Positions 1 through 24,571 of a stretch of 37,858 nt of DNA are shown in pieces; within the stretch, counting starts at the first letter, position 1, and every line of letters starts with the position of its first letter. Position numbers and translations under genes: made by a program. Below the pieces are notes generated by a model, which saw only the letters and a list, made by a program, of their open reading frames with translations, ran no database searches and had not been told where the DNA came from. Source of the DNA: DHVE2 group archaeon (GTDB lineage: Archaea > Thermoplasmatota > Thermoplasmata > Thermoplasmatales > Aciduliprofundaceae); assembly GCA_015523125.1 (NCBI GenBank), contig WAKX01000002.1:1-37858 (forward strand), read 5' to 3'.

Positions 1-519
1 AGAGAGAACGTAGAGTTTCCAGTCCTCCTCGCTCATATCCTTCTTGGGAATTGCCCTGCTCCACAACTCTTTTATCTCCCCCTCATTCTTTCCCTCGTTT
101 TCCCTCTTTATGGCAATGCGAAGAAAATGAAGAAGAGCGGCATCATCCTCGGCGTGGAAAATGGGAATTCCGTACTTGTACTGGATTTCCATAAACGCAC
201 CCATCACATGGTTCCACCCCATTCCCGAGTTCTCCAACGCATCTCCCAATAATCCGTGAATAACCAAAGCCCTGCGAATTATTTTAACCTCATTCACTTC
301 ATCGGTGAGCATCCTGCGCATCTGCTCCCACAGCCGATTGTTTTTCATACTGGCTATGAAATCATTTGCCTCTTTTCTCTCGATGAGCATGCCCTGATCC
401 TCCTGAACGATTAGAAAATCACCAACGGGAAGCGTGAGAATATCCACATTCTCGAATTCCCTCATTATCAGGTGTGCCACCTTCCTCTCGCGGTAATCTA
501 CTAATATTTTTGCTCCCAT
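1..519 (-). CDS. ERCC4/XPF-type structure-specific nuclease, partial (3' end outside window)
   Basis: The reading frame opens with ATG at 519 and stays open to the window edge, giving 173 codons of N-terminal sequence. The nuclease motifs sit at the very start: VDYRERK, then GDFLI, then IERKEANDF. This is the GDx(n)ERKx3D metal-binding core of the XPF/Mus81 family, which nicks branched DNA in repair and fork processing. Because the nuclease domain begins at residue 1, this is the short archaeal XPF form and not the long Hef form with an N-terminal helicase. A C-terminal helix-hairpin-helix domain would be expected but lies outside the window. The gene starts 22 bases after the transglutaminase-like gene on the same strand, so the two are probably co-transcribed. 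Confidence 0.85.
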   Translation of the reverse strand, partial: MGAKILVDYRERKVAHLIMREFENVDILTLPVGDFLIVQEDQGMLIERKEANDFIASMKNNRLWEQMRRMLTDEVNEVKIIRRALVIHGLLGDALENSGMGWNHVMGAFMEIQYKYGIPIFHAEDDAALLHFLRIAIKRENEGKNEGEIKELWSRAIPKKDMSEEDWKLYVLS

Positions 520-541
520 AGGGCAGCAAATGTCGGGGGTT

Positions 542-1381
542 CTAAAAATTTTTTCCTTCGCACGCCTTCTCTACGCGTGGAACTTCGTTTTCGATTTCGT
601 ACCTCAAATTTCCCCCTTTCCACGAGAGCTGCAAATCTGGCAGCGAGGGGTTGAACTCTTCCACCTTCAGAACGATGTAATTCGGAGAATAATTTCCCAC
701 TTTTCTCATGGCTGTGTCCACTACGATCCATTCGCCCCGGGCGTAAATTTCGCTCCACGCGTGCATCTCCACTTCGTTATGGATAAGCATGCCCGTTATT
801 CTCCTCGTGGGAATGCCCCGAGCCCGGGCCATCGTGATGAAAAGGTCTGTGAACTCGTCGCAATCTCCCTTGCTCGATTCCAGCGCATGCAAAGCCCCTA
901 ACCTTTCGACCTGCGGCTCGGCGTTTTTGATTGCTTTCCAAAGAAATCTAATTGCGTTATCAACCCAAATTTTTATTCTCTCCTCCCTGAACCATTCTTC
1001 ACCCGCAATTTCCTCGATTTTTTCGTTTTTCAGCGGCCAGTAAATGTTCGCTTCCCTGTATTTTCTCTTCAACTCTTCCGGAATTTCATCCACTTTGCCC
1101 CAATTCATTCGAGGGTCGATGAAATAGCTCAAAGGGTATACTTCCATCTCGTACGATAAGTCCATCACGCCCCTTTTTGATAACTTTCCACGATGAACCA
1201 AAAGATTGTTGAATCCCTTCTCCACTATTTTGAAACCCTCGGGAATCCTTTTGAGATTTACGATTTGCCTGTACGGCGGAGGTATGAAGAATTTGAGATT
1301 CAGGCGAACATTGCCCGTGGATGCCCAATACCTGAGTTTTCTCTCGCTCTTAATTCTCCACCCGCAAATGCCATTATGCAC
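542..1381 (-). CDS. Transglutaminase-like (cysteine protease fold) protein
   Basis: A 279-residue soluble protein. The C-terminal half carries a transglutaminase-core triad: Cys in KGDCDEFT, His in EMHAWSEIY about 35 residues later, and Asp in WIVVDTA. The spacing matches PF01841-type domains, which cover papain-fold proteases, peptide N-glycanases and related amidases. The N-terminal 130 residues are not recognised. No signal peptide or membrane segment is visible, so a cytosolic hydrolase or transferase is likely; the substrate cannot be told from sequence. The start at 1381 has no clear Shine-Dalgarno sequence. The gene lies between the DRG GTPase gene and the XPF-type nuclease gene, all on the minus strand. 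Confidence 0.8.
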   Translation of the reverse strand: MHNGICGWRIKSERKLRYWASTGNVRLNLKFFIPPPYRQIVNLKRIPEGFKIVEKGFNNLLVHRGKLSKRGVMDLSYEMEVYPLSYFIDPRMNWGKVDEIPEELKRKYREANIYWPLKNEKIEEIAGEEWFREERIKIWVDNAIRFLWKAIKNAEPQVERLGALHALESSKGDCDEFTDLFITMARARGIPTRRITGMLIHNEVEMHAWSEIYARGEWIVVDTAMRKVGNYSPNYIVLKVEEFNPSLPDLQLSWKGGNLRYEIENEVPRVEKACEGKNF

Positions 1382-1422: not shown

Positions 1423-2520
1423 TCATTTTCTTATGACTAATCGCACGATATCCTCATCTTCTACGCGATGATCCAGCCCCACATGCTGCCCGGGGTACTT
1501 TGCGCTCTTGCCCCAAACCATCGCGTAGCGGAATTTTTTCACGAAATCCCTGTGAATCGAGTTGCATACATCTTCTATGGTGTCCCCCCTTCTCAGAATT
1601 AGAGGGGCATCATAATCTATCTTCCCGCTCTGGGGCTTAAGGTACACCCTTATCAAACCGATCGCCGTGAACATCCTCTCTTTCAGCTCTTTGATTCCGT
1701 ATTTTTCCTGAGCGGAGATGAACACCGGATCCCATTTTTCGAATCTCTTCGTCAATTCTTTTACTATGTTTTCGTCCGCTAAGTCGATTTTATTAATTAC
1801 CAAAATTGCCGGGATGTACACTCTATTTCCTGCTAAGAAATCCAAAAAATCCTCGGCGGTGATGTCCTCTTTGATTAGAATATCCTCATTCCTGTATCCG
1901 AACTCCCACGCCATGGACCTCAGTAATTCTTTATCCACTGACAGCGGAACCGTGGACGCGATGTTTATCCCGCCCTTTTCAGTTCTTTTTAGAGTAATTT
2001 TCGGTTTTCTCTTGTTTATTCGAATTCCGAAGTCGTAGAGCTCTTTTAATATCGTGTCCAAGTCCAAGTTGTATATGTCCAGCACGAGAAGAAGTAAATC
2101 CGAATCGCGGGCTATGCTCAATATCTCACGGCCGTTCCCTCGACCCTTCGCCGCTCCTTCTATTAGCCCGGGCATGTCCAAAATCTGAATCTCCGCGCCC
2201 TTGTATTTCAGTATTCCCGGGAGCACGTCGAGGGTGGTGAACGCGTAATCGCCCACTTCGCTCTTGGCATTGGTGAGCTTGTTGAAAAGCATGCTCTTTC
2301 CCACGCTGGGCGGCCCGATGAGCGAGACGCGGGCATCCCCCTGCTTTTTCACACCTTCCCTTGATATTCTTTTTTTCTCTCTTATCTTCTGCTCCTCCAA
2401 CTGCTTCTTCAGGAAGGTGAGGCGGGCCTTGAGCTTTAAAATGTGCTTTTCCGTGGACTTGTTGTACTTCGTTATCTTCAGCTCGTCTTCGATTTCCTTT
2501 ATCCGCTTCTCTATGTCCAC
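1423..2520 (-). CDS. DRG/Rbg-type GTPase (Obg-related, TGS domain)
   Basis: A 365-residue GTPase of the developmentally regulated GTP-binding family, which in eukaryotes and archaea associates with ribosomes. Visible motifs are the P-loop GPPSVGKS near residue 69, switch II DMPGLIEGAAKGRGNG, the guanine-specificity motif NKID near residue 247 and a C-terminal TGS domain over about the last 75 residues. The N-terminal 60 residues are highly charged and probably coiled coil, as in the family. Length is typical. The start is GTG at 2520, with no Shine-Dalgarno sequence; a TATA-like TTTAAATA lies roughly 18-25 bases upstream, which suggests a leaderless transcript. The stop is 41 bases before the transglutaminase-like gene. 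Confidence 0.9.
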   Translation of the reverse strand: MDIEKRIKEIEDELKITKYNKSTEKHILKLKARLTFLKKQLEEQKIREKKRISREGVKKQGDARVSLIGPPSVGKSMLFNKLTNAKSEVGDYAFTTLDVLPGILKYKGAEIQILDMPGLIEGAAKGRGNGREILSIARDSDLLLLVLDIYNLDLDTILKELYDFGIRINKRKPKITLKRTEKGGINIASTVPLSVDKELLRSMAWEFGYRNEDILIKEDITAEDFLDFLAGNRVYIPAILVINKIDLADENIVKELTKRFEKWDPVFISAQEKYGIKELKERMFTAIGLIRVYLKPQSGKIDYDAPLILRRGDTIEDVCNSIHRDFVKKFRYAMVWGKSAKYPGQHVGLDHRVEDEDIVRLVIRK

Positions 2521-2554
2521 GGGCTGGGATTTGAACCCTATTTAAATAATTTTC

Positions 2555-3352
2555 TCAAAGAAATAGGTATCTGCGGATTATATTCTCAATTTCTTGAACC
2601 TCGGCATCGTTGTAATTTCCCTCTTCGAATTTTTTCGGAAAGCTAATTTTTATGGCCCTGAGCGCCCCTTTCATATTCACCCTCAATTTTCCATCTCCTC
2701 CTGACGTCATCACGGCGAGCTTTAAATTTCCGAGCTTCTCAACGAGTATATTAAAATTGCCGTATCTGAAATCCTCATTGTGTATCGCAATCTCCTTTTT
2801 CAATTTCTCATCGTCGATTGCGCTTACGGGAACCATGGTTATGTACTTGTCTCCGTGGTAGAGAAAAGCAATTTTTCCGGTTTTCATCTTTTTCTTTGAA
2901 AGGAGCGCGATAACTAATTTTGTGTATCTGTTTTTCATGTAGATTAAGTATCCGAGCCATGCTCCGTATATTGCGATGTACCACGGGGTCACGAGGGTTA
3001 AAATTTTCACATAATCTCTGCTATCCAGATATATTTTTGTTATGTATGACACGATTCCCCAGCTGGAGAGAATTATGAGTAGAAATAGAAGAAAAGAGAT
3101 TTTCCTCTTTGCAGCTTTTTTCTCCACCATTATTTTTTCGAAGATTTCCCTTATTCCTTTTTGCTTTGGGATAATTAAAGCGGTAAATATGCAACGCTCT
3201 AAGATTATCACTCCTACAAAAAGGAGAAAATAAAAAAACGCGCCATGGAAGTCTCCCAAATAAACGGCGTTGGCGCTAACTCCGATTAAAACCGCTAATT
3301 CTACTATTCCCAAGTACAGAAAGTCCTCCCTGAGCTCGGTGATTGTGGCCAC
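2555..3352 (-). CDS. Hypothetical membrane protein with four N-terminal helices
   Basis: A 265-residue protein that I do not recognise. Four hydrophobic segments are visible, roughly at residues 14-34, 38-62, 84-106 and 117-139. They are followed by a soluble C-terminal part of about 120 residues that is basic and mixed alpha/beta in appearance. The start is GTG at 3352, preceded by a TTTAAA-rich stretch and no Shine-Dalgarno sequence. It sits 71 bases downstream of the large exported repeat protein and 34 bases upstream of the DRG GTPase, all on the minus strand. The function is unknown. Confidence 0.65.
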   Translation of the reverse strand: MATITELREDFLYLGIVELAVLIGVSANAVYLGDFHGAFFYFLLFVGVIILERCIFTALIIPKQKGIREIFEKIMVEKKAAKRKISFLLFLLIILSSWGIVSYITKIYLDSRDYVKILTLVTPWYIAIYGAWLGYLIYMKNRYTKLVIALLSKKKMKTGKIAFLYHGDKYITMVPVSAIDDEKLKKEIAIHNEDFRYGNFNILVEKLGNLKLAVMTSGGDGKLRVNMKGALRAIKISFPKKFEEGNYNDAEVQEIENIIRRYLFL

Positions 3353-3423
3353 ATTTAAAAAAGAGAAAGAGTGAATAAAAACGCTGCGTTACAAATCTAA
3401 AAAATGATAATAAAAATAAAAAA

Positions 3424-5430
3424 TTAGTGGCGCCTAACGGCGAAGAATACCACGATTGGTAGGAATACAAAGAGAATCAACGGGTTAAACTCTGGTACCG
3501 CTTGAGTAACCGCATATATCTGAACGCTGTGCGTCGTGGTGATTAGGACCTCGTTGGTAATTCCATCGTTGTTGTAATCGAACTGGTCCCAAGAGCTTGT
3601 TGTTTTTATTGTTGTGAATGCGAATATATCCGTATCCCTTGAATCTCCAGTGACCTCGCCGCTCCAAAGCAACGAGCCGTCCTTTCCGGAGAGTATCTTG
3701 ATGTATGTGTCCACAGAGCCTGTTCCGTTGTCGTAGTAGATCTTTATTATGGTATCTCCATAGCCGTCGTTGTTTATATCTCCCACTATTTCCGCGGTGG
3801 TGCTCCAATTCTTGAAGTCATTGCTGTTCACTCCCAAGCTCACCTTGCTTGTCCAGAGCGTTGTTCCATCCCCTGATATCGAGGAGACGTTCACATAGAG
3901 AGATGAGCCGTCGTTGTAGTACCCGTACACGACCAAAGAATCTTGGAGACCGTCGTTGTTCATGTCGGAAATTTCTTTCTCGACTCCATTACCCACAAAG
4001 CCCGAGATTGCGCGTATGTAATATTTGCTCCAAATTACTTGGCCGTTCACAGCGTTTATTGCTGTGAGATTCACCTTCTTTGTTTTAACCCCGTTTACGT
4101 ATGTGTCGTTCATGCCCATCAAATACAGATCCCATACTCCATCTCCTGTTAAATCATTTGTGGACAGCGTCACCGCATAATTATAGCTCTGGTTATGGAG
4201 ATTCAATTTCCAAACAGTTGAATTATGGGCAACATCCCAACACACCAAGTTGGTGTTGTTATCAACGAACAACACTTCCCTGTTGCCATCGTTGTTCACA
4301 TCCACGCTGTTAACTAACCTGTGAAAATGTCCAACCTTAATGTCAGTATGGGTTGCCATCACGCTTATATTTGAGGGACCTCTCATATAGTAACCTAAGA
4401 CGTTTCCTGAAGAATCCACAAAGTTCAAGTAGGAATAGTTGGAAGAATAGGTACCAATCATTATGTCAGTTTTATTGTCTCCGTTGTAATCGAAAGCATA
4501 GGCATTGAAACCATCCAGTATGGTGAAGAATCCCAACGGGTCAAGAATCGGCATTGTGCCCGTTATGTTATTTTCCCACACAACATTTCCGTTGGATGTG
4601 TCGTATGCAACAAGAGTTGTATTTCCCGGGTTAGATGTGATATTTGCGAACATTATTGTTGGTGCTCCGCCAGTCACTCCAAGTCCGTTGAAGTCAATTA
4701 GATCCACTCCGAACGGGTAAAGTCCTCCGGTGGATATCATCTTCTCGGTTTTCTCCCATACTATGTTGAGTGTTTCGTTCATAACGATTATTTGAAGCTC
4801 ATTCACCGTTTGCCCGAGGGCCGAGCCGGCGTATACTCCGAAATACACTATATAAGGTTCGTTGTTAACTGCTATCACATGAAAAATCCAGTTGTAGGCG
4901 TTAACCGTAACTGGAGTAATGCCGGTGCTTATGGTGCTTGGGATATCTATTCCCCTGTACGAGATATTTCTCAAAGAAGGATAATCTACTGAATACACGG
5001 AAACCCTCTTGTTGTTGCTGTGGTTTCCGAAAATCATAAAGTGATGTTCAATCGTAGGATTCCCTTGATTGTCTAATATGGTAATTCCGTAGAGGGTGCC
5101 ATCCTCTCCCACCACATCGCCGCTTTCCGCGTATCCCACATCCGTGAAATAAGTTTTGTTCATCGTGGAGCCATCAGCTCCGTTGAGCAAGTATACGGAG
5201 TATGTGTTTGCACTGTAATTTTCTGCGGTTACCATTACCTCCGCGAGCCCATCTCCGTTAGCATCCATACTCTCTGTTGTATTTATCATTCCCATGTTAG
5301 AATCCATGTTAGTTGTCCACACTTCCGTTGGCGAGAAACTGGTGGTAGCTCGAATTGAGCTCGCACCGGCAACCGCTGCAAATGCTGAAACCATCAATAC
5401 TATAACCACTCCTAACGCCCAAATTTTCAT
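3424..5430 (-). CDS. Exported FG-GAP/VCBS-like repeat surface protein with PEF-CTERM-like tail
   Basis: A 668-residue secreted protein. It has a Sec signal peptide (positively charged MK, then a hydrophobic run to about residue 24). At least seven Asp/Asn-rich calcium-loop repeats follow, of the form DxNxDGxxD: DANGDGLAE, DYNGDNKTD, DVNNDGNRE, DLTGDGVWD, DMNNDGLQD, DINNDGYGD and DYNNDGITN. These are typical blades of FG-GAP/integrin-like beta-propellers. The tail reads VPEF, a hydrophobic helix, then RRH, which resembles the PEF-CTERM sorting signal cut by archaeosortases. It is also rich in NxS/T sites, in keeping with a glycosylated cell-surface protein. A Shine-Dalgarno AAGGTGATT lies 7 bases before ATG. 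Its ligand is unknown. Confidence 0.8.
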   Translation of the reverse strand: MKIWALGVVIVLMVSAFAAVAGASSIRATTSFSPTEVWTTNMDSNMGMINTTESMDANGDGLAEVMVTAENYSANTYSVYLLNGADGSTMNKTYFTDVGYAESGDVVGEDGTLYGITILDNQGNPTIEHHFMIFGNHSNNKRVSVYSVDYPSLRNISYRGIDIPSTISTGITPVTVNAYNWIFHVIAVNNEPYIVYFGVYAGSALGQTVNELQIIVMNETLNIVWEKTEKMISTGGLYPFGVDLIDFNGLGVTGGAPTIMFANITSNPGNTTLVAYDTSNGNVVWENNITGTMPILDPLGFFTILDGFNAYAFDYNGDNKTDIMIGTYSSNYSYLNFVDSSGNVLGYYMRGPSNISVMATHTDIKVGHFHRLVNSVDVNNDGNREVLFVDNNTNLVCWDVAHNSTVWKLNLHNQSYNYAVTLSTNDLTGDGVWDLYLMGMNDTYVNGVKTKKVNLTAINAVNGQVIWSKYYIRAISGFVGNGVEKEISDMNNDGLQDSLVVYGYYNDGSSLYVNVSSISGDGTTLWTSKVSLGVNSNDFKNWSTTAEIVGDINNDGYGDTIIKIYYDNGTGSVDTYIKILSGKDGSLLWSGEVTGDSRDTDIFAFTTIKTTSSWDQFDYNNDGITNEVLITTTHSVQIYAVTQAVPEFNPLILFVFLPIVVFFAVRRH

Positions 5431-5459
5431 TTCAAATCACCTTATTGAACATCGGAAAG

Positions 5460-6045: not shown

Positions 6046-6597
6046 ATGATATTGAAAGAAATGAAGTACAAAGGGGTGAAAATACAAATAGTCCAAGGGG
6101 ATTTGACTGAGGAGAACGTGGATGCGATAGTCAATGCTGCGAATTCCCACCTAATGCACGGGGGCGGCGTCGCGGGAGCAATTGTGAGAAAGGGAGGATA
6201 TGAAATACAGAAAGAGAGCGATGAATACGTTAGAAAGAATGGGCCAGTGAAGACCGGAAACGCCGCGGTAACATCCGGAGGAAAATTAAAAGCGAAGTAC
6301 GTTATTCACGCCGTCGGTCCAGTGTGGCACGGAGGAAGTAACCATGAGGATGAGCTTCTATATTCTGCCATCTACAATTCTCTTCTGAAAGCGAAGGAGA
6401 TAGGCGCGGAGAGCGTCTCCATGCCTGCAATAAGCACTGGGATATTCGGATTCCCGAAGGAAAGGGCCGTAGGGATATTCGCCAGGGCCATTAAGGATTT
6501 CATTGATCAAAATTCTGGGGTAAAATTAATTCGGATCTGCAACATTGACAAAAAAACGGCTAAAATATTCGCAAACAACTTCAAAATATCAGACTGA
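6046..6597 (+). CDS. Macrodomain protein (ADP-ribose/O-acetyl-ADP-ribose binding)
   Basis: A 183-residue stand-alone macrodomain. Recognisable features are QGDLTEENVDAIVNAAN with the adenine-contacting Asp and the catalytic-type Asn, GGGVAGAI, the phosphate-binding loop STGIFGFP and the late strand with ADP-ribose contacts. Relatives of the MacroD/YmdB type remove ADP-ribose from proteins or hydrolyse O-acetyl-ADP-ribose. The ATG at 6046 is chosen because GAGGTGA ends six bases before it; an in-frame ATG at 6007 lies inside the upstream archaemetzincin gene. The 3' end overlaps the convergent FlaD/E-like gene by 9 bases. A role in reversing ADP-ribosylation is family knowledge, not shown here. 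Confidence 0.93.
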   Translation: MILKEMKYKGVKIQIVQGDLTEENVDAIVNAANSHLMHGGGVAGAIVRKGGYEIQKESDEYVRKNGPVKTGNAAVTSGGKLKAKYVIHAVGPVWHGGSNHEDELLYSAIYNSLLKAKEIGAESVSMPAISTGIFGFPKERAVGIFARAIKDFIDQNSGVKLIRICNIDKKTAKIFANNFKISD

Positions 6598-6942
6598 AAA
6601 TATTTCTTCGGGAGTTTCGGTGAATATCTTCACGTAGGTGTCCAATCCGTAAATCTCTCTGGGGATATCCATGCCCGCCAGCGCGGTTATGAAAAGAAGG
6701 GAGGTGAGGTGCACCCTGCTCGGCAGTTGCCATGAGCCCTTGCCCGAGGAGGTTATTCCCTCGGCCATCTTAATGAGGTTTTCTTTCACGTCATTGGAAA
6801 TCCAGCCTATTTCCTGGTAGTAGTTCATCAATTTCTCCAATTCCTGGTGGTTCACGTACTGCAGCAGGTACCCTAACCATCTTTCGGCCAGTATGTGCGA
6901 CTTGATGTCCTCTCCTAACCTTTTCAGGAGCATGCTCACCAC
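6589..6942 (-). CDS. FlaD/E-domain archaellum accessory protein
   Basis: A 117-residue protein matching the archaeal FlaD/FlaE C-terminal domain. The features seen are a YYQEIGWISNDVKENL segment, a Leu-rich AEGI turn, and an LxxxxHLTSLLFI helix followed by LAG. Family members act at the base of the archaellum with FlaC/FlaH. This copy is the short, FlaE-like form made of little more than the domain. It overlaps the archaellin stop codon, so translation is probably coupled. GTG at 6942, GTG at 6939 and ATG at 6933 are all possible starts and the ribosome-binding sequence does not separate them. No other archaellum genes lie in the window. Confidence 0.75.
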   Translation of the reverse strand: MVSMLLKRLGEDIKSHILAERWLGYLLQYVNHQELEKLMNYYQEIGWISNDVKENLIKMAEGITSSGKGSWQLPSRVHLTSLLFITALAGMDIPREIYGLDTYVKIFTETPEEIFSV

Positions 6943-7805
6943 AGCTCCATGTACTTGGTTGTGTAAGTTGCAGGCGTTGTGAATTCCACAAGCGTCGGCA
7001 CTCCGTGCTTTGGTATCAGTTTAACCATCACTGTAGTTTGAGGTTCTAAATATAGGCCTATTGCCGAGGCGTTGATGTATATGCGGACCACATCTCCTAA
7101 TGTTAGTACCCTATCTCTTTCCCAGTTGACAGGGGGCATGTCCCTCGCAATCTCAGCCGCAAAGTGCGAAGCTCCCAAATGCGTGTAGTTTGTAACCGAT
7201 GCGTTGAATGTAAGTGTTGCATCCGTGTATCCGTCTGTTATTTCGATTAGTACGCTGTCCATGGAGATTGGAGGACTGCCTGCAACGAGCCCCGCTTTTA
7301 TCTCCAGATATTCTAACGTTCTCTTATACCCTGAGCCATATGTTACAGATATCGTTGTTCCCGATGCAGGTGCCGTTGTATATGTGACGCTTATTGTTTT
7401 ATTGTCGTATCCGATCCAGCCGCTTACTCCGCTTCCTGAGGTGAGTATCAAATTTCCGGTTCCGTCGTCTTTTAGAACATTTGTGCCATCGCTTACCACC
7501 ACTGAGTTCGGGTTAACTGGTCCGTGGGATAGAACTTTTGTGAAGGTGGTCCGGCTTCCATCCCCTGCGCCGATGTTTTCCGTGTAATAATAATCCTGCC
7601 TTATTCCTTCCACAGTTATCACTTTGAATCCCGTGGCCACATCCTGCATTGCTATATCACCCGTTTCTTCGGCCTGCTGTTGGAGAAGGTAAGCTGTTTG
7701 AATGATCACTGAAGCAGCCACCGCTGCCACGATGATTATTGCTATGAATATTATCAGTGTGCCGATGCCGAATTCTCCTTCTTCCTTATTCCTCATCCTT
7801 TTCAT
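6936..7805 (-). CDS. Archaellin (archaeal flagellin) with an inserted beta-rich module
   Basis: A 289-residue archaellin. The N-terminus has a charged leader ending in Gly, then EFGIGTLIIFIA and a long hydrophobic helix. This is the class III signal peptide processed by a FlaK-type peptidase, and the helix forms the filament core. The C-terminal head domain keeps archaellin motifs such as AGSPPI and VLIEITDG. Between them, residues about 79-157 are an extra Gly/Thr-rich block beginning GDGSRTTF and ending SGTTISVTYG, which looks like repeated modules of phage and exported fibre proteins. NxS/T sites suggest N-glycosylation. GGAG lies 8 bases before ATG. The FlaD/E-like gene follows with overlap. 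Confidence 0.87.
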   Translation of the reverse strand: MKRMRNKEEGEFGIGTLIIFIAIIIVAAVAASVIIQTAYLLQQQAEETGDIAMQDVATGFKVITVEGIRQDYYYTENIGAGDGSRTTFTKVLSHGPVNPNSVVVSDGTNVLKDDGTGNLILTSGSGVSGWIGYDNKTISVTYTTAPASGTTISVTYGSGYKRTLEYLEIKAGLVAGSPPISMDSVLIEITDGYTDATLTFNASVTNYTHLGASHFAAEIARDMPPVNWERDRVLTLGDVVRIYINASAIGLYLEPQTTVMVKLIPKHGVPTLVEFTTPATYTTKYMELW

Positions 7806-7892
7806 TCTTCATACTCCTGGGAGACCCTGTGCCCGCAGGTGATGATATAGCTGGTAATTCTCAGACTTGATTACGATTGATAATAATCCCTC

Positions 7893-7905
7893 TTAATTTT
7901 AAAAA
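7893..7905 (-). promoter_or_regulatory. Likely TATA box for the archaellin operon
   Basis: On the minus strand, TTTTTAAAATTA lies about 90-100 bases upstream of the archaellin ATG. It is the best TATA-like stretch in the 160-base gap, and it would give a leader of roughly 60-70 bases. The gap otherwise shows no gene. Confidence 0.35.
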
Positions 7906-7965
7906 CTTTTTCTCACGGTTATCTGAAAAGGAACATTTCCGCATATTAGAAAAAATGGGCAGTAA

Positions 7966-8469
7966 TCAGAATTCTATGATTTCCGCGTCTCCGCCATCGA
8001 TATCCAGAATTGCAAAAGTCCTCTTTCCACTGAGATACCCACATGATTCGCCTGGATTGAGAAGCAGAGTTTTTCCCAGTTTGCGAATATCCACGATGTG
8101 CGTATGCCCGTACAGAACGAAGTCGTACTCACCGCTGTTTGCAAAGTTCTCCACAATTTTTTTAGTTTTCTCGACACTCCCGGAGCCGTGGTATAACATA
8201 ATTCTTTTGCCTTGAAATTCCAGTATATATGGCTGAATGTCTATTTTCATTCCGCTCTCTTCCGCAATTTTTTTCAGAAGAAGCTTTTCACCGTCGTTGT
8301 TGCCGAAAACTCCGTAATATTCAAATCTGGAAAATTTTTTAAGCACAAATGGAGAAATGATGTCGCCTAAGTGAAAAACTACTTTTATTTCTTTTTCTCT
8401 CATTATTTCAATGGCTTTCTCCACCGCTTCCATGTTGTCGTGAGAATCGCTTATGACGGCAACTTTCAT
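7966..8469 (-). CDS. YfcE/MJ0936-type metallophosphoesterase
   Basis: A 167-residue calcineurin-like phosphoesterase with the full metal-binding set. SDSHDN provides the first Asp and His, HLGDI the second Asp, GNND the Asn/Asp pair, YHGSG a His, and GHTHI the last two His residues. Length and motif order match the YfcE/MJ0936 group, which hydrolyses phosphodiesters in vitro. The physiological substrate is not established. It is transcribed away from the TrmB-type regulator, with 73 bases between the two starts, and lies upstream of the archaellin gene in the same direction. Confidence 0.9.
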   Translation of the reverse strand: MKVAVISDSHDNMEAVEKAIEIMREKEIKVVFHLGDIISPFVLKKFSRFEYYGVFGNNDGEKLLLKKIAEESGMKIDIQPYILEFQGKRIMLYHGSGSVEKTKKIVENFANSGEYDFVLYGHTHIVDIRKLGKTLLLNPGESCGYLSGKRTFAILDIDGGDAEIIEF

Positions 8470-8542
8470 AGATGCTTATCTCCACTCCATATATTAAATT
8501 TTTTGAGGGAAGAAATAAAATAGGTGATTTCAATATCTAACC

Positions 8543-9250
8543 ATGGATGTTGAAGATGCCTTCGAGGAGTACAAGAAATTGGTTGATTCTCTTCAAAAGT
8601 TAGGTTTATCTATGTACGAGGCGCGTGCGTTCTTAGCCTTAGTTGTTTTGGGGGTCGGCTCCGCTGAAGTTGTTGCCCAGACCGCAAAGATTCCTAGAAC
8701 TTCTGCTTACAAAGTTTTAGAGTCTCTCGAAGATAAGGGATTTGTAGTCTCGATGGAAGGGCGCCCGAAGGTTTACAAGCCGATGGAACTCAAAGAAATA
8801 AAAGAAAAAATTGTGGAAGAGGTAAACGAGCTATTCGACAAGTTGGAATTCATACAGGAGTTTTTGATGGAGAAGGGCGAGCCCCAGTTGGTGTACACCA
8901 TATACGGAAAGGAGCGGGTGATGAAGAAAATCGCCGAGATGATTGATCTCACAGAGAAGGAGATTATAATCTCTACGCCCATATTTTCCGAGATTCGAAA
9001 GAATCTGATAAAAAATATAGAGATGGCTTTAAATCGTGGGGTGAAGGTTATCGTCATAACCCACCCCAATCAGAAGATTCCGAAAGGCGTGGACTCGTAC
9101 AGGAAAGAAGGACTCATCGCCACGGATATTGTTAGCGATAATAAACGCGCATTACTTGCGTCTCCCGAGCTCAACGCGTGTGGATACACCGATAACCCTG
9201 CGTTGGCACAGCATTTGACTCATTTCATAAACATAATGATTGAAAAATAA
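8543..9250 (+). CDS. TrmB-family transcriptional regulator
   Basis: A 235-residue protein with an N-terminal winged helix-turn-helix around residues 15-75. The stretch LGLSMYEARAFLALVVLG followed by IPRTSAYKVLESLEDKGFV is the TrmB signature. A coiled-coil linker (EEVNELFDKLEFIQEF) and a C-terminal phospholipase-D-like fold (about 125-230) follow, the architecture of TrmB proteins that lack the long sugar-binding domain. It should act as a DNA-binding repressor or activator; its effector and targets cannot be read from sequence. No Shine-Dalgarno lies at the usual distance from ATG 8543; a GGTGATT sits about 14-20 bases upstream. It may control the divergent phosphoesterase gene. Confidence 0.85.
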   Translation: MDVEDAFEEYKKLVDSLQKLGLSMYEARAFLALVVLGVGSAEVVAQTAKIPRTSAYKVLESLEDKGFVVSMEGRPKVYKPMELKEIKEKIVEEVNELFDKLEFIQEFLMEKGEPQLVYTIYGKERVMKKIAEMIDLTEKEIIISTPIFSEIRKNLIKNIEMALNRGVKVIVITHPNQKIPKGVDSYRKEGLIATDIVSDNKRALLASPELNACGYTDNPALAQHLTHFINIMIEK

Positions 9251-9255
9251 GGGAG

Positions 9256-9777
9256 TTATTTAACGAATTCCTTGCCTTTGGTGACAACTATTCTGCAAGA
9301 TGTGGGCAGCTTGTAAGAGGCTTCTCTAAGTGCCTCCTTGGCCTTTTCCACGTTGTTTGGATTCACGCGGGCGGACATTATTATCTGCCCTCTCTTCACT
9401 CTCGCCGCAGTCCCCACGGGCTTGCCGAAAGCTTTACTCATACCAGAAGAGATACGATCCGCACCGGCGCCAGTGGCCATTTTATGCTCTCTGATAACCT
9501 GATGCGGAAAGACGCGAATCCAGAGGAAATAGTTTGCCGTACCAACCTTGTTAAGATGCTTATTTGCGATAATTCTCGCAGCCTCAAGGGCATTGTGCCT
9601 GATTTGGCACGATTCATCAACCATTAAACTCAATTCGACGGGAAAATCGTTCTTTGCCTTAACGTTTCCCATCTCAAAATGCACTATCTTTGGATTGGGA
9701 ACTCCTCCCATGTATTCACGACGAGTGTAAGCGGGACCATCGACGTTACGATACATTCTTCCTGGCTTACGCACCAT
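9256..9777 (-). CDS. rpl10e: Large-subunit ribosomal protein L10e (uL16)
   Basis: A 173-residue archaeal L10e. It starts VRKPGRMYR and keeps the family blocks [49 protein letters not shown] and [10 protein letters not shown]. This protein binds 23S rRNA near the peptidyl-transferase and P/A tRNA sites. The length is normal. GGTGAG precedes ATG by a few bases and an AT-rich TATA candidate (9811-9820) lies about 35 bases upstream. It is monocistronic here and ends 6 bases from the convergent TrmB-type gene. Confidence 0.97.
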
Positions 9778-22013: not shown

Positions 22014-23882
22014 ATGAACTGGAACGATGTTGTATCTGGATATGTAGAGCAGAAAGACTGGCGGGTCAGAGAGAACAGCAATACCTCGTACTCTTTCTCG
22101 GGGCTGATGCTTCATGCGGCATGAGAAGTAATAAAGGAATACACCCTTAACAGAGTTTATCCCCGAGAAATATCTGAGGCGCACAGGAGGGGGTATTTCC
22201 ACATTCATGATCTCTCTTTCGGGATCATCCCCTATTGTGCAGGGTGGTACTTAAAGGACCTTTTGTTGAGGGGATTCGGCGGAGTACCGGGAAAGATAAA
22301 TGCAAAGCCGGCGAAGCATCTGGACACGGCCGTTGCCCAAATAATAAATTTCCTGGGAACCATGCAGATGGAATTCGCCGGGGCGCAGGCGTTCAGCAGT
22401 TTGGACACGTACCTCGCTCCTTTTGTGAGGGCGGATTCTCTCTCTTACAGGGAAGTGAAGCAGAATATGCAGCGTCTGATTTACGGGTTGAATATTCCTT
22501 CAAGATGGGGCTCTCAAACACCCTTTACCAATTTTACCTTTGACCTTGTTCCCCCGGATGATTTGGGTGAGGAGCACGCCGTAGTTGGAGGAGAAGAATT
22601 GGAAAGCACTTACGGGGAATACCAAGAAGAGATGGACATGATAAATAAAGCGTTCATCGAGGTTATGATGCACGGGGATGCCAATGGGAGAATATTCACG
22701 TTCCCGATTCCCACGTACAATCTTCTTCCCGATTTTGACTGGGGTGGCGAGATAGCCAACAGAATATTCGAGATGACTGCAAAATACGGAATACCCTATT
22801 TCCAGAATTACATAGGCAGTGATTTGGATCCCAGGAGCATACGTGCCATGTGCTGCCGCTTGCAGCTGGACATCAACGAATTGAGGAGCCGTGGGAACGG
22901 ATTGTTCGGCTCTGGAGAATTAACCGGATCAATAGGTGTGGTAACGATTAATCTCAATAGGCTTGGTTATGAGGCGAAGGATGAAGATGAATTCTTCGAA
23001 AAATTGCTGCATTATATGAATTTGGCAAAGGAGAGTTTGGAAATAAAAAGAAGGATCGTGAACGAAAATCTGCGGCGCGGGCTATTGCCTTTCACGAAGG
23101 TTTATTTAGGGCACTTCAACAATCACTTCTCTACAATAGGGCTCATCGGCATGCACGAAGCTCTAATGAATCTTTTCGGTATCGGAATATACGAGGAAGA
23201 GGGGTTGAAATTTGCAGTGAAAACCCTCAAGTACATGAGGGAAGTGCTGAAATTGTATCAGGATGAGACGGGGAATCTTTACAATCTGGAAGCCACGCCC
23301 GCCGAGGGCGCCTCCTATCGTCTGGCTAGACTCGATCGGCAGATGTACGATGATATTTACACATCTGGCGAGGACGAGCCGTATCTGACGAATTCCACAT
23401 GGTTGCCTGCAGAGTACAAGGCGAGCATAATGGAGAGCCTATCTCACCAGGAGGTTTTACAGAGTCTTTACACGGGAGGTACCGTCTTTCATGCGTATTT
23501 GGGTGAGAGGATAAGTGCCGATAGCGCCAAGGCATTCGCAAGGAAGATAGCGAACAACACGAAAATTCCATACTTTACAATAACTCCCACGTTTTCCATA
23601 TGCCCCGAGCACGGATACCTTCCGGGTGAGCAGTGGACTTGCCCTTACTGCGGCAGAAAAACGGAGGTTTATTCGAGGGTTGTTGGATACTTCAGGCCGG
23701 TTGAGTCGTGGAACAACGGAAAGCAGGAGGAGTTTTCTGAGAGGGTCACCTTCAATCTTAACGCCATGGAGCGTGAGAGCAGGTGGAAAAGGTACAGGGA
23801 AATAGTGGAAGATGTGGAAACACCGGAAATCAAAGGATTTTCCGTAGAAAAGAAGGAAAAAATAAAATTGGTTCTGATGTGA
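22014..23882 (+). pseudogene. nrdD: Anaerobic ribonucleoside-triphosphate reductase (class III), interrupted by an in-frame TGA
   Basis: From ATG 22014 the frame encodes a complete 622-residue class III reductase except for TGA at 22122-22124 (codon 37), in LMLHAA-stop-EVIKEYTLNRVYP. Both sides are clearly NrdD: VRENSNTSYSFSG before, and HIHDLSFG, YCAGW and FGGVPGK after. The C-terminus has the zinc-binding cysteines (CPEHG, CPYCG) and the glycyl-radical loop RVVGYFRPV. Relatives have Gly at the stop position, so a GGA-to-TGA change would explain it. Without readthrough the product would have to start within the gene, for example TTG 22263, losing 83 residues. GGGGGAT lies just before ATG 22014. 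nrdG overlaps the end. Confidence 0.85.
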
Positions 23883-24571
23883 TGGATATGCTCATCGCTG
23901 GATTCAAACCTGATTCCATGGTGGATTGGCGAGGGAAGATAGTGGCGACGGTGTTCACCTACGGGTGCAATTTCCGTTGCCCCTTCTGCCACAATTTTTA
24001 TCTGGTTACCGAGAAGATGGGGGAAAGATACGATGAAGAGGAGATTATTGCGAGAGTGGAGGAGTTGGGGGATTGGATTGATGGAGTGTGTATCACGGGT
24101 GGAGAGCCGACGATGCACAAGGATATAGTGGATTTCGTAAAAGAGATAAGAAAAATCAAACCTGTGAAGATAGACACGAACGGTTCCAATCCGGATACCC
24201 TCAGAGAATTACTGCGATTTGCGGATTACGTGGCGATGGACATCAAAGCGCCCAAAGGCAGATACGAAGAACTCGCGGGGGTGCCCGTGAATATAGAAAA
24301 AATAGAAAGGAGTGTGCAGTTGATAAAAAAATACGCTCGAGATTACGAATTCAGAACCACATTTGTGCCCGTGCTAAAAAAAGAGGATATAGTTGATATT
24401 GCGTCCTGGTTGGTCCCTTCAAAAAGGTACGTTATCCAGCAGTTCTCCACCGGAGGAGGAACTTTAGATCCTAGTTACTCCCAATTGAAACCTTTGGATC
24501 CCATCGTATTGAGATCCGCCTGCGAAGAGATACGGGGAAATTTTGAGGAATGCATCGTAGCCAACGTTTAG
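23882..24571 (+). CDS. nrdG: Anaerobic ribonucleotide reductase activating protein (radical SAM)
   Basis: A 229-residue radical SAM enzyme that puts the glycyl radical into NrdD. The cluster motif CNFRCPFC (Cx3Cx2C) lies near residues 28-35, followed by the GGEPT SAM-binding motif and KIDTNGSNP. The ATG at 23882 overlaps the nrdD stop (TGATG), so translation is coupled; upstream frame extension to 23783 lies inside nrdD and is rejected. The length and domain are normal and no defects are visible. It remains intact although nrdD has a stop codon. Confidence 0.92.
   Translation: MDMLIAGFKPDSMVDWRGKIVATVFTYGCNFRCPFCHNFYLVTEKMGERYDEEEIIARVEELGDWIDGVCITGGEPTMHKDIVDFVKEIRKIKPVKIDTNGSNPDTLRELLRFADYVAMDIKAPKGRYEELAGVPVNIEKIERSVQLIKKYARDYEFRTTFVPVLKKEDIVDIASWLVPSKRYVIQQFSTGGGTLDPSYSQLKPLDPIVLRSACEEIRGNFEECIVANV

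Follow-up and report, generated by a model that had tools for sequence, protein, structure and literature searches.

The window, which is the whole stretch of DNA that was analysed, is the entire contig C2 (37,858 bases) of a 1.54 Mb MAG with 62 contigs and 95% completeness, and its nearest relatives are DHVE2 group and Aciduliprofundum archaea. The locus discussed here consists of the following features.

22014..23882, + strand: nrdD, encoding a class III (anaerobic) ribonucleoside-triphosphate reductase; 622 codons if codon 37 is read through, with the stop TGA at 23880-23882 (translation, Pfam and NCBIfam)
22122..22124, + strand: in-frame TGA, codon 37 of nrdD; GGA in the nearest relative
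23882..24571, + strand: gene for an nrdG-type activase (NrdG2, radical SAM), from its sequence, PF04055 and TIGR02495 NrdG2 over cut-off

The translated frame runs from ATG 22014 through 36 codons to the TGA at 22122-22124, after which it continues as NrdD for another 585 codons, up to the stop at 23880-23882. An earlier note, made from the sequence of the window, had described this TGA as a single-codon event without a frameshift, in a gene that reads as NrdD on both sides and whose radical site, zinc cysteines and nrdG are intact, and all of these points were borne out. In the profile search, PF13597 (NRDD) spans the TGA at full length (positions 1-562, '1 TGA' inside) and scores 627 bits across the stop, against a curated cut-off of 26.2, and the part after the stop is over the cut-off of NCBIfam PRK08270 and TIGR02487. 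The translation keeps the glycyl-radical motif RVVGY (RVVGYFRP) and the four zinc cysteines (CPEH...CPYCG), and the adjacent nrdG begins at ATG 23882, overlapping the nrdD stop (TGATG). The uninterrupted ORF that gives an active class III RNR is thus broken in nrdD by the TGA at codon 37. A second intact nrdD, for which the earlier note had suggested a search, does not exist in this genome, and no duplicate of the nrdD region was found there either.

Codon 37 in relatives and constraint on nrdD

The nearest relative, locus L002, is 95.7% identical to the window in DNA over nrdD and more than 98% identical in protein, aligns without an indel, and differs by one base at codon 37, which is GGA; the position of the L002 match corresponds to that of G003, a member of the same genus. 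Codon 37 encodes Gly in each of the 22 close homologous loci in which it is covered, a set in which some contigs are counted twice, so that fewer of them are independent. In a wider set of NrdDs the residue is Gly in 51, Ser in 17 and Thr in one. The claim that relatives carry Gly is therefore exact within the family, whereas more distant NrdDs often have Ser. No other residue that is invariant among the close relatives is changed in the window.

No internal stop was found in the NrdD of other genus members, and most complete genus members retain an intact nrdD. Among distant NrdD homologs there were no stops near codon 37; all of their stops lay at query position 549 or beyond, where a gene ends or the alignment has gaps. 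Viral contigs, checked for an independent reading of the codon, gave just three short matches in the C-terminal part.

Compared with L002, nrdD carries 72 synonymous and 6 missense differences in addition to the stop, and the adjoining topA segment carries 65 and 5, respectively. Apart from the stop, nrdD thus looks constrained, with no sign of general decay, and the similar ratios in the two genes indicate that any relaxation of constraint would be too young to see. At residue 244 the window has Gly and the homologs Asp, Glu or Asn (given at window 22744-22746; codon 244 occupies 22743-22745), which faintly hints at relaxed constraint.

Recoding and internal initiation

For a genome-wide view of internal stops, the whole genome of the window was compared with the 664 genes called on 660 kb of G011, a single-contig relative. 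Alignments of at least 45% identity were obtained for 451 of these genes and amount to 127,621 aligned residues. Sorting by eye removed stops that fell at the end of a gene, before its probable start, in a shadow frame or in rRNA. Among the 451 genes this left the TGA of nrdD as the one convincing in-frame stop inside a gene, and the same comparison gave one frameshift candidate, at L170 ~6330-6340 (contig C32 ~25830), in a gene resembling a phospholipase-D-type protein. Two stops near a gene start at L184 ~3065-3071, where identity to G011 is 48%, may come from a misplaced start, from a gene that ends differently or from damage to a second gene. Split frames were also sought by a coding-potential scan; its output was nearly all ordinary gene-to-gene junctions and did not include nrdD, which makes it weak evidence.

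TGA ends 366 of 758 long open frames (TAA 314, TAG 78) and is thus the main stop codon of the genome. Together with the single convincing internal stop in 451 genes, this usage led us to reject a genome-wide reassignment of TGA.

The position of the TGA within the open frame of an anaerobic radical enzyme brings selenocysteine to mind, and most selenoproteins have homologs with Cys (PMC8211752). The residue homologous to codon 37 is Gly, or less often Ser or Thr, and not Cys. Here, as in 20 relatives, matches to tRNA-Sec did not reach the gathering score, SepSecS was absent from 21 of 21 genomes (relatives included), and the PSTK search gave no match. Those SelB-like matches that were identified are EF-1alpha and aIF2-gamma, and the SelD-like ones are ThiL, HypE and PurM; the machinery was thus not detected in a MAG that is 95% complete. 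The window gave no Rfam match, to a SECIS element or to any other family; archaeal SECIS forms may be poorly covered by Rfam. The earlier note had considered selenocysteine unlikely, and with negative SelB, SelD and tRNA-Sec searches, Gly at the site and TGA as the main stop, we regard this reading of codon 37 as almost certainly wrong.

A real, strain-specific TGA might also be read at a low level by a near-cognate tRNA, giving trace amounts of full-length NrdD in an archaeon without selenocysteine machinery. Consistent with this, the frame downstream of the TGA remains open and shows constraint on the branch leading to L002, but a young mutation or an error accounts equally well for such a frame. 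In addition, a stop at codon 37 is present in no relative, no tRNA with a UCA anticodon was among the 32 detected in an incomplete tRNA list, and the 100 bases from the stop onward fold no better than shuffled sequences (z = +0.55). Selenocysteine and pyrrolysine readthrough and -1 frameshifting are described as the only unequivocally established recoding in Archaea (PMC8037382). Programmed readthrough, which calls for a conserved stop and a stimulating context, was rejected on the lack of a stop in relatives and on the fold result. The readthrough option of the earlier note is strongly disfavoured by TGA being the main stop, by the lack of any other internal TGA in the comparison, by Gly at the site and by the lack of detected selenocysteine machinery, and we rate low-level readthrough as very unlikely. 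Recoding at codon 37 is disfavoured in general.

Internal initiation, another option of that note, would give a shortened active enzyme and was assessed from three further features of the gene.

22202..22213, + strand: conserved HIHD motif, codons 63-66 of nrdD; His65 aligns with His114 of T. maritima NrdD, which binds the substrate phosphate (PMC4493059)
22236..22238, + strand: Cys75 of nrdD, aligned with T. maritima Cys125, a cysteine conserved in all known RNRs (PMC4493059)
22263..22265, + strand: TTG, the first in-frame ATG, GTG or TTG past the TGA; ORF 22263..23882, with residues 1-83 lost if it is the start

TTG 22263 is the first in-frame start beyond the stop and has AAAGGA just upstream, but initiation there would remove residues 1-83, including the HIHD motif, whose His63, His65 and Asp66 are near-invariant, and the active-site Cys75 that is conserved across RNRs. 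The ATG at 22121, which overlaps the TGA, opens a different frame that a stop closes after nine codons. An active enzyme started at TTG 22263 is thus highly improbable.

Nonsense mutation or consensus error

In all likelihood the lone stop in nrdD arose either by chance mutation in the recent past or through the miscalling of a base, and does not reflect a special reading of the genetic code. From the list of causes in the earlier note, sequence error and recent nonsense mutation survive, while readthrough, internal initiation and selenocysteine are disfavoured.

We give barely better than an even chance to an isolated, recent GGA-to-TGA nonsense mutation in nrdD of this strain, in which case the base would be present in the cells. 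Translation from ATG 22014 would then end after 36 residues and probably yield no working class III RNR. The expression of the overlapping nrdG may also drop: TGATG-like gene overlaps have been linked to translational coupling in archaea (PMC6728339), and the early stop may therefore reduce NrdG. Deoxynucleotides would be made instead by two adenosylcobalamin-dependent (class II) RNRs, whose genes are intact in this genome.

L124:4051-6441 (contig C38): class II RNR gene
L095:11995-14301 (contig C9): class II RNR gene

An NrdD match is missing in 21 of 23 relatives of the order outside the family; with the two intact class II genes, this would make the loss of nrdD tolerable, and nrdD is dispensable in principle. 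Between the two class II genes, a core of about 1.1 kb has ~89% DNA identity (the protein being nearly identical) and the flanks have ~50-65%. Such patchiness may point to gene conversion between the paralogs, or else to an effect of the assembly. Contigs of relatives often break within the same class II RNR genes.

Gly at codon 37 in all close homologs and the stop-free NrdDs elsewhere in the genus argue for a nonsense allele, and the redundant function and the unusual residue 244 were also counted for a real mutation. The excess of synonymous over missense differences from L002 (72 against 6) is likewise what a young stop would give. Since only one convincing internal stop was found in 451 genes, stop-generating errors appear to be uncommon in this MAG. 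Against a nonsense allele we counted the absence of general decay, the composite look of the MAG and the intact nrdD in most complete genus members.

The TGA could instead come from an error in base calling or in the consensus, or from a mixture of strains, with a sense codon and a working nrdD in the cells, and this is a serious possibility, rated somewhat under even. It is a one-base event in an otherwise constrained gene, and one nonsense codon plus one frameshift candidate in the ~383 kb of coding sequence compared could fit a modest consensus error rate. Moreover, several contigs overlap others at their ends, with 91-97% identity; window 1-900, for example, overlaps L128 1-903, the start of C42, at 94.4%. 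Such overlaps suggest that the MAG joins contigs from at least two closely related strains, and this composite look makes a consensus artefact at codon 37 more likely. The lack of any other convincing nonsense codon in the 451 compared genes weighs against an error, and the redundancy of nrdD means that a real loss is not improbable. The ratings of the nonsense mutation and of the error are judgements and not computed values, and what remains is shared by readthrough, internal initiation and selenocysteine.

Further overlapping contig pairs in the MAG are L103/L183, L146/L185, L120/L136, L131/L171 and L098/L120. Additionally, a region with a DnaJ-like gene after another chaperone-like gene is present twice, at L098 ~2137-5444 (C12) and L105 ~6197-9501 (C19), and the two copies have ~81% identity over 3.3 kb.

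In itself, a single stop in a single dispensable enzyme gene of a single MAG is of small weight. If the base is real, a DHVE2 strain would have been caught giving up its anaerobic RNR, with the B12-dependent RNRs left to do the work, as is apparently the case in most relatives of the order outside the family. Among the papers searched, none joined Aciduliprofundum with ribonucleotide reductase. The case also counsels caution: for a lone in-frame stop in a MAG, reads and composite contigs should be checked before recoding is invoked.

Comparison with known systems

The NrdDs of DHVE2 and Aciduliprofundum archaea represent the same gene in the same place, ahead of the NrdG2 activase gene and with a full-length domain, but have Gly at codon 37 where the window has an in-frame TGA. 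Archaeal selenoprotein genes, with selenocysteine at UGA, likewise have an in-frame TGA in an open frame; in nrdD, by contrast, no selenocysteine machinery was detected and the homologs have Gly rather than Cys. The class II RNR NrdJ does the same job as NrdD and, with two intact genes here, is the likely back-up, but it belongs to a different enzyme class and is not the gene in question. The locus resembles a recent single-nonsense pseudogene, that is, a null allele of a redundant gene, in having one stop, no other decay and a class II RNR back-up, and its sense codon in close relatives and its redundant function are those of such pseudogenes. It differs from them in that the stop could be an assembly error.
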